From Planctomycetaceae bacterium (GTDB taxonomy: Bacteria; Planctomycetota; SZUA-567): 64,000 bases of DNA. Position 1 is the first letter of the stretch. Each line of letters opens with the position of its first letter. The notes beneath the pieces were generated by a model. The model saw nothing but the letters and a program-made list of their open reading frames with translations, made no database searches and was not told where the DNA came from. This document shows, one piece after another, positions 32,514-35,161 of this stretch. A program made the translations under genes and the position numbers. Location: NCBI GenBank assembly GCA_021203245.1, contig JAJQBO010000092.1:1-64000 (forward strand), given 5' to 3'.

Positions 32514-33332
32514 CTATCCCGGAATCTCTCCAACCCCTCCAAGAACATACCCCGGCTGATACGCGAATCGCACCAAATCGTCGCGGCAGGTCACGCCCGA
32601 GAGCACCAGCACCGTCTCGATTTCCGCCTCAACCCCGGCGACGATGTCCGTGTCCATCCGGTCGCCGACGATAACCGTTTCGTCGGGCGCGGTGGCGAGG
32701 CGCTTGATGGCGTGGTGCATCATCAGGGGATTCGGCTTGCCGCCGAAGTAGGCCTTGACGCCGGACGCCATTTCAATCGGCGCGACCAGCGCGCCGCATG
32801 CCGGAATGATGCCGTGCTCGCTCGGACCGGTCGGGTCCGGGTTGGTGCCGATAAGCTTGGCGCCACGGCTGCGAATCAGGTGTACGGCGCGTTCAATCTT
32901 TTCGTAATTGTAGGTGCGGGTCTCGCCGACGACGATGTACTCCGGGTCGACGTCGTTCATGGTCAGGCCCGCGTCGTAGAGGGCGTTGATGAGGCCGCCC
33001 TCGCCGATGGCGTAGATGCCCGCGCCGGGCCGCTGGCGGGCGAGGAAATCGGCTGTCGCGAGGGCGCTGGTGTAGAAGTGCTCCTCCCCCACGTCGAGGC
33101 CGAGGCGGGTCAGCTTTTGCCGCAGCTCGCGCGGGCTCCGTTCGCTCGAATTGGTGAGGAACAGGAACTGCTTGCCTGTTCCCTGGAGCCAGTCGACAAA
33201 GGCGGGGACGCCGTCCAGTAGGCGGTTGCCATGATAGATAACGCCGTCCATGTCGCAGATAAAGGCTTTTTTGGCGCGGAGCGCTTCAATGGTCTTATCC
33301 GGATTGCCGACTCTGTTCATGGCGTTCTCCAT
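32514..33332 (-). CDS. HAD-IIA family hydrolase (NagD/UmpH-like)
   Basis: KAFICDMDGVIYHGNRLLDGVPAFVDWLQGTGKQFLFLTNSSERSPRELRQKL...GGKPNPLMMHHAIKRL...ETVIVGDRMDTDIVAGVEAEIETVLVLSGVT. Confidence 0.9.
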   Translation of the reverse strand: MENAMNRVGNPDKTIEALRAKKAFICDMDGVIYHGNRLLDGVPAFVDWLQGTGKQFLFLTNSSERSPRELRQKLTRLGLDVGEEHFYTSALATADFLARQRPGAGIYAIGEGGLINALYDAGLTMNDVDPEYIVVGETRTYNYEKIERAVHLIRSRGAKLIGTNPDPTGPSEHGIIPACGALVAPIEMASGVKAYFGGKPNPLMMHHAIKRLATAPDETVIVGDRMDTDIVAGVEAEIETVLVLSGVTCRDDLVRFAYQPGYVLGGVGEIPG

Positions 33333-34369: not shown

Positions 34370-35137
34370 TCACCCCAAATAGCCCCTCAACCGCGCCGCG
34401 TGCGACTGCTCCTCGTCGGCCAGCCGGGTCAGGACCGTGCGCACCGACGGAATCAGGGTGCGGGCCGCAAGGTCGGCATAGAACGACGCGCTCGCTTCCT
34501 CGTGCTGGATAAGCCGCTCCATCACCCGCTTGTCGCCGGGCGGCAGGCCGCGCCCGGAAACGGACGGCCGGGTCGGCAGGTCGCATTTCCACACTTCGTC
34601 GCGAATCGCTTCCTCGGGCAGGCCGCGCAAGCGGCGGAGATGGTCCTCTTCCTCGCGGGCGAGTTGCAGCAGCACTTCTGCCAGTTCCGGGCTCGATTCG
34701 GCGGCAACGCGGTTGTACCGTTCCATTGACAAGGCTTCGAAATCCATGGCGGCGCGGAGGGCGATGCCGGCCATGATGCCGCCTTCGCCGCCCCCGTCCG
34801 TCGCCACCGCGCCTGTCTCGGCCGCGGCGCTTTCGCTGCGGTAGGAGGAGAAGACTTCATACAGGGTGATGAAGCCGAATACCAGAAACAGCGCACCCGC
34901 GGCCAGGCGGATATAGCGTTCGTCAGGCACCACACGTTTGAGAATGTGGCCCAAAAAAACGGCGACAAAGGTCGACAGGACCAGGGCCAGGCTTGCGCCC
35001 AGAAACACCACCCATTTCGCCCACGACGCGTCGGGGGCGTCGGCCGTCTTGGCCAGGGCGGCCAGTTGCGTCTTGTCCCCCAGCTCTGCCAGAAAAATCA
35101 GGACAAACGTCCCGCTGAACAGCCTCCACCAATCCAT
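34370..35137 (-). CDS. Fusion: N-terminal GDT1/UPF0016 (TMEM165-like) domain + C-terminal rubrerythrin/ferritin-like domain
   Basis: FVLIFLAELGDKTQLAALA (E-x-G-D-K-T signature) with 3 TM segments; then FEALSMERYNRVA, REEEDHLRRL, HEEASASFYADLA, DEEQSHAARL supplying E...ExxH...E...ExxH. Confidence 0.85.
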   Translation of the reverse strand: MDWWRLFSGTFVLIFLAELGDKTQLAALAKTADAPDASWAKWVVFLGASLALVLSTFVAVFLGHILKRVVPDERYIRLAAGALFLVFGFITLYEVFSSYRSESAAAETGAVATDGGGEGGIMAGIALRAAMDFEALSMERYNRVAAESSPELAEVLLQLAREEEDHLRRLRGLPEEAIRDEVWKCDLPTRPSVSGRGLPPGDKRVMERLIQHEEASASFYADLAARTLIPSVRTVLTRLADEEQSHAARLRGYLG

Positions 35138-35161
35138 GCCTGCTCCTTGCGTGCCGTATCG

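Follow-up and report, generated by a model that had tools for sequence, protein, structure and literature searches.

Does a single minus-strand gene in the window (the whole 64,000-nt stretch of DNA analyzed here) really join a cation transporter of the GDT1/UPF0016 family to a diiron domain of the ferritin type, and if so, what could such a protein do? The frame runs over 255 codons from an ATG to a TAG stop at 34370–34372 and is uninterrupted across both domains (Table 1). Its N-terminal part matches the Pfam family PF01169 (GDT1/UPF0016; residues 10–88, 3.2e-20, 72.7 bits vs. a cut-off of 27), and its C-terminal part matches PF02915 (Rubrerythrin; residues 127–252, 9.8e-10, 39.4 bits vs. 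a cut-off of 22.8). The original prediction of a single GDT1 repeat fused to a ferritin-like domain is therefore borne out, as the profile search found both domains above their curated cut-offs within one open reading frame; its description of the signature motif, the three helices, and the diiron ligands was also correct.

Table 1. Features of the fusion gene and its product (window coordinates; residues numbered from the start codon).
Feature	Position	Strand	Basis or remark
Whole ORF, 255 aa	34370..35137	(-)	GDT1 repeat, linker, and ferritin-like domain
Shine-Dalgarno sequence AAGGAG	35143..35148	(-)	5 nt upstream of ATG; read from sequence
GDT1/UPF0016 single repeat, residues 1–98, three hydrophobic helices	34844..35137	(-)	PF01169, hydropathy, model
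ELGDKT motif, residues 18–23, predicted cation site of the family	35069..35086	(-)	Invariant in alignment
Ala/Gly-rich variable linker, residues 99–119	34781..34843	(-)	Alignment; pLDDT <50 at residues 100–119
Four-helix ferritin-like diiron domain, residues 120–255	34373..34780	(-)	PF02915; isolated-domain model
Diiron ligand E134, helix A	34736..34738	(-)	Invariant
Diiron ligands E163-x-x-H166, helix B	34640..34651	(-)	Invariant
Diiron ligand E213, helix C	34499..34501	(-)	Invariant; no Glu at +3
Diiron ligands E243-x-x-H246, helix D	34400..34411	(-)	Invariant

The same fusion is present whole in three genomes of the same genus (G005, G001, and G003), in three further members of the family (G015, G007, and G011), and once in another class of the same phylum (G256, locus L034). 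The latter is the most distant fusion found, and both of its domains exceed their Pfam cut-offs. In none of these seven relatives does a stop codon separate the domains, which disposes of the concern that a frameshift might have merged two genes. Together with the window, the frame is thus open in eight genomes; in a ninth, from the same family (G012), it is broken by contig ends only, and the two pieces overlap in LQAAL. No further fusions were detected in 392 genomes drawn from the phylum (approximately 380 further ones), in 29 genomes of the fusion's own class, in 23 genomes of the class of G256, in 300 genomes of the phylum of Thermoanaerobacterium, in plasmids, or in viral contigs. The viral set yielded one match, an unfused GDT1-like gene (L058) on a contig classed as viral (IMGVR_UViG_3300042281_000575) that is perhaps host DNA adjoining a provirus. 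Genome G121, which belongs to the same family as G256, encodes a two-repeat GDT1 (212 aa frame, contig C209) and no fusion. The fusion is hence real and conserved, and narrow in its spread so far found. It is also undescribed in the literature searched: the papers searched did not pair UPF0016 or COG2119 with rubrerythrin, and those that mention UPF0016 together with ferritin appear irrelevant by title and abstract.

The C-terminal half has a complete set of diiron ligands, and neither the fusions nor the standalone COG1633-type proteins vary at E134, E163xxH166, E213, or E243xxH246. The closest solved structures by sequence are likewise of the COG1633 type (1vjx, 2.7e-19; 2fzf, 2.7e-16; also 2oh3). 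Modeled in isolation, the domain forms four helices with a mean pLDDT of 80.6, and Foldseek aligns this model to rubrerythrin 1ryt with a TM score of 0.75, albeit at a weak E-value of 6e-3. The full-length model was of modest confidence (pLDDT 70, pTM 0.49), with weak Foldseek E-values, and was dropped as structural proof, while the isolated ferritin domain remains usable. The original label "rubrerythrin-like" holds for the fold and fails for the ligand set. In rubrerythrins, an ExxE motif in helix C supplies the seventh (carboxylate) ligand; a Glu at +3 after E213 is absent from every fusion. Moreover, there is no rubredoxin-like FeS4 domain, as the protein ends at the fourth helix and has no CxxC pairs. 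True rubrerythrin identity is ruled out by these two features, and the C-terminal half is better named a ferritin-like diiron domain with a symmetric ligand set of the COG1633/bacterioferritin type. Canonical rubrerythrins with the ExxE motif and a C-terminal rubredoxin domain are encoded three times elsewhere in the window's own genome (L076, L077, and L078 on contigs C152, C252, and C97). Encapsulated ferritin (EncFtn/EncB) was considered as well and rejected, with profile scores of 24.3 bits vs. a cut-off of 90 and 23.1 bits vs. a cut-off of 125.

The N-terminal half is a single GDT1 repeat with hydropathy peaks near residues 12, 52, and 86, and the full-length model places helices at residues 3–32, 38–69, and 73–107. 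Its ELGDKT motif fits the family consensus E-x-G-D-(K/R)-(S/T), the predicted cation site of GDT1 proteins (PMC4067407, PMC11345563); it is invariant across the fusions and is also kept by unfused relatives. The linker that follows varies in length and composition among the fusions. Originally the protein had been called a half-transporter that must dimerize or find a partner half. That it has only one repeat is correct, but this is no defect: bacteria commonly have single-repeat GDT1 proteins, and the singleton of Desulfovibrio magneticus alone suffices to complement yeast gdt1/pmr1 (PMC4067407). Each of the nine fusion genomes (76–91% completeness) contains exactly one PF01169 gene, and the same Pfam search found no separate GDT1 partner half in any of them. 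The probability that incomplete assembly concealed a partner in all nine is approximately 5e-8 (the product of the missing fractions, with independence assumed). Consequently, the partner half can be discarded, and only further copies of the same protein can serve as its partner.

How these copies are oriented is a separate question. GDT1 singletons have little K+R bias and have been proposed to form dual-topology antiparallel homodimers (PMC4067407). With loops as we defined them and the ferritin domain left out, the K+R counts on the two sides are 5:3, 5:3, 4:4, 4:5, 4:4, 4:4, 3:1, and 3:3 in the eight full fusions, which therefore retain the weak bias expected of dual-topology singletons. 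If the antiparallel model is valid, the C-terminal diiron domain would lie on both sides of the membrane. We tentatively put forward, while thinking it somewhat doubtful, that the fusion is still a dual-topology protein, whose antiparallel homodimer would carry identical diiron ferroxidase domains on each face of the inner membrane, with a single metal antiporter at the center; a single gene would then yield a two-sided metal-oxidizing transporter. Should the diiron domain instead force one orientation, only parallel dimers could form from the single gene, unlike in the family model.

In a tree of the GDT1 domain, the nine fusions form one group with the unfused proteins of G002 and G009 (support 97/92), two members of the same family whose GDT1 is the same but has no ferritin domain attached. 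G256 branches outermost, with both unfused proteins nested, so that three changes are required in all; the simplest account of this topology would be one fusion event followed by two losses of the ferritin domain. The unfused gene of G002 adjoins the same prepilin-like neighbor that is close to the fused genes of G003, G015, and G012 and therefore lies at the same locus; no ferritin gene or remnant was found downstream of it. The copy in G256 may have been acquired by transfer, or its short contig (5 kb) might have been binned wrongly. In comparisons of closely related pairs, the GDT1 part has dN/dS values of 0.06 and 0.04 and the ferritin part values of 0.07 and 0.08, and both halves are thus under strong purifying selection at this distance. 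Between subgroups the ferritin half diverges faster, with 52–54% identity vs. 81% for the GDT1 part.

The genomic context offers little guidance. On the minus strand between positions 32514 and 35845 lie genes for a TPR protein, the fusion, a peptide-ABC transporter ATPase (ABC_tran and oligo_HPY domains), and a NagD-like HAD phosphatase, whose tight packing with short gaps suggests one operon. This order is common to G005 and is not kept in the more distant fusion genomes: HAD and prepilin-like genes are the neighbors in G001, G003, G015, and G012, and in G011 these are leuS and recO-like genes. Beside the fusions no metal gene is conserved, and context is kept only between near relatives; a metal operon is ruled out by these non-metal, poorly conserved neighbors. 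The gene that directly follows the fusion in G007 and G011 (L062:7210-7596; in L063 after the fusion, to 8572) encodes related small proteins with paired Cys motifs (CPVC...CPCC and CPIC...CPNC). A manganese riboswitch (yybP-ykoY) had no Rfam match in the window or near any fusion. At unfused GDT1 loci elsewhere, a ferritin-like gene was nearby in none of 40 cases (flanks mostly 3–4 kb a side), which speaks against a wider functional link. Gene context, riboswitch search, and neighborhood survey point to no particular metal and lend no backing to the metal- or redox-gated export of Mn or Fe that was originally proposed. Among other exporters, the search covered MntP alone, which was not found in the fusion genomes; its absence leaves a possible niche for GDT1.

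What is known of the GDT1 family points to exchange of Mn2+ or Ca2+ for protons (PMC7380456, PMC11345563), and family members export manganese (PMC13274385, PMC9936198). The explanation that we favor, to which we give an even chance, is a homodimeric (or higher homo-oligomeric) antiporter of protons against Mn2+ or Ca2+, perhaps also Fe2+, with a tethered ferroxidase or metal-binding domain. Homodimerization, substrate, and proton coupling are here extrapolated from the GDT1 family, and we infer that the protein acts as a ferroxidase and that its halves may be coupled. Two copies of the single-repeat antiporter, or more in a larger homo-oligomer, would work together, and in each of them the diiron domain would hang on a flexible tether of approximately 20–30 residues behind the third membrane helix. 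The transporter would expel Mn2+, Ca2+, or both, and perhaps Fe2+ too, by proton exchange; the tethered domain would bind iron or manganese and consume O2 or H2O2 by oxidizing Fe(II) at the membrane. It could thereby limit Fenton damage and control the free metal that reaches the transporter. Several observations count against this explanation, namely the non-metal gene context, the missing manganese riboswitch, the lack of a neighborhood link at the 40 unfused loci, and the modest full-length model. In addition, transport seems not to need the ferritin domain, since G002 and G009 have GDT1 without it.

Among the alternatives, an iron exporter akin to MbfA, in which a cytosolic ferritin-like domain takes up iron and hands it to the membrane part, with the C-terminus fixed inside and Fe2+ as the main substrate, survives best, although we consider it unlikely. 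MbfA exports iron across the inner membrane and has a dimerizing ferritin-like domain (PMC4902296), so that transporter and ferritin-like domain share one chain in both cases, and five of seven fusion proteins weakly match the MbfA model. However, the match of the window protein covers the ferritin part only and reaches 18.7 bits vs. a cut-off of 450 (NF045676), there is no VIT1 match, the membrane half is GDT1 instead of VIT/CCC1, and the two domains stand in the opposite order. An erythrin-VIT protein is already encoded separately in the genome, those parts of the literature that were examined contain no report of iron transport by GDT1 members, and a fixed topology encoded by a single gene would give a parallel and not an antiparallel dimer. 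Rather improbable is a second alternative, the gating suggested originally: the ferritin-like domain would sense metal or redox state and control transport allosterically, opening it when the diiron site is loaded or oxidized. The domains are directly tethered and co-conserved, which favors such a sensor, but no sequence feature indicates coupling, the linker differs among the fusions in both its length and its residues, and close relatives possess GDT1 on its own. Thirdly, the GDT1 part could be mainly a membrane anchor for a ferroxidase or peroxidase that guards the inner membrane. This agrees with the retention of all diiron ligands and with purifying selection on the ferritin domain between close pairs; its chances are nevertheless slim, as ELGDKT is invariant, the GDT1 half is the better conserved at distance, and in the simplest reading of the tree it was the ferritin domain that was lost twice while GDT1 was kept. 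Finally, an artifact in which assembly or sequencing error joined two genes, or a contig was misbinned, has a negligible probability: the relatives' genomes look like fragmented metagenome assemblies and the contig of G256 is short, but the same joint with an open frame recurs in assemblies made separately for four genera of a single family and for another class, with selection on both sides of it.

The fusion is of value chiefly because it allows dual topology to be tested, and with it the repeated coupling between diiron domains and metal exporters. Its large C-terminal diiron domain is a built-in orientation reporter and makes the fusion a natural experiment on dual-topology membrane proteins. 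If GDT1 singletons insert both ways, a folded metalloprotein would have to be accommodated on both sides of the membrane; if they do not, the dual-topology model needs revision. A clean comparison is possible because some relatives have the ferritin domain and others lack it, in one case at an identical chromosomal position. Furthermore, since the transporter family is a second and unrelated one, diiron chemistry may have been joined to metal exporters more than once.

Comparison with known systems places each half of the protein in a familiar setting. GDT1/UPF0016 singletons such as that of D. magneticus (PMC4067407) are alike in the motif, the three-helix repeat, the weak K+R bias, and the approximately 95 residues that precede the extension; they stop after helix 3, whereas the fusions add a diiron domain of 140 residues. 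MneA, Mnx, and TMEM165 are two-repeat members of the family, in contrast to the one repeat of the fusion. COG1633-type proteins (2fzf, 1vjx, and 2oh3) have the same E/ExxH/E/ExxH pattern but are soluble and single-domain, and rubrerythrin shares the four-helix fold and PF02915 with the fusion, which lacks the seventh ligand and rubredoxin domain of that protein. The window's own genome contains on contig C70 an erythrin-VIT-like protein with ferritin-like helices followed by VIT1 (L021:804-1898; PF01988, 2.5e-12). MbfA and erythrin-VIT proteins likewise unite a metal transporter with a ferritin-like diiron domain in a single polypeptide, and both they and the fusion probably work near the membrane on transition metals. 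In the former, however, the ferritin domain is N-terminal to a VIT1/CCC1 transporter, while in the fusion it is C-terminal to GDT1, and the resemblance is one of functional analogy only.
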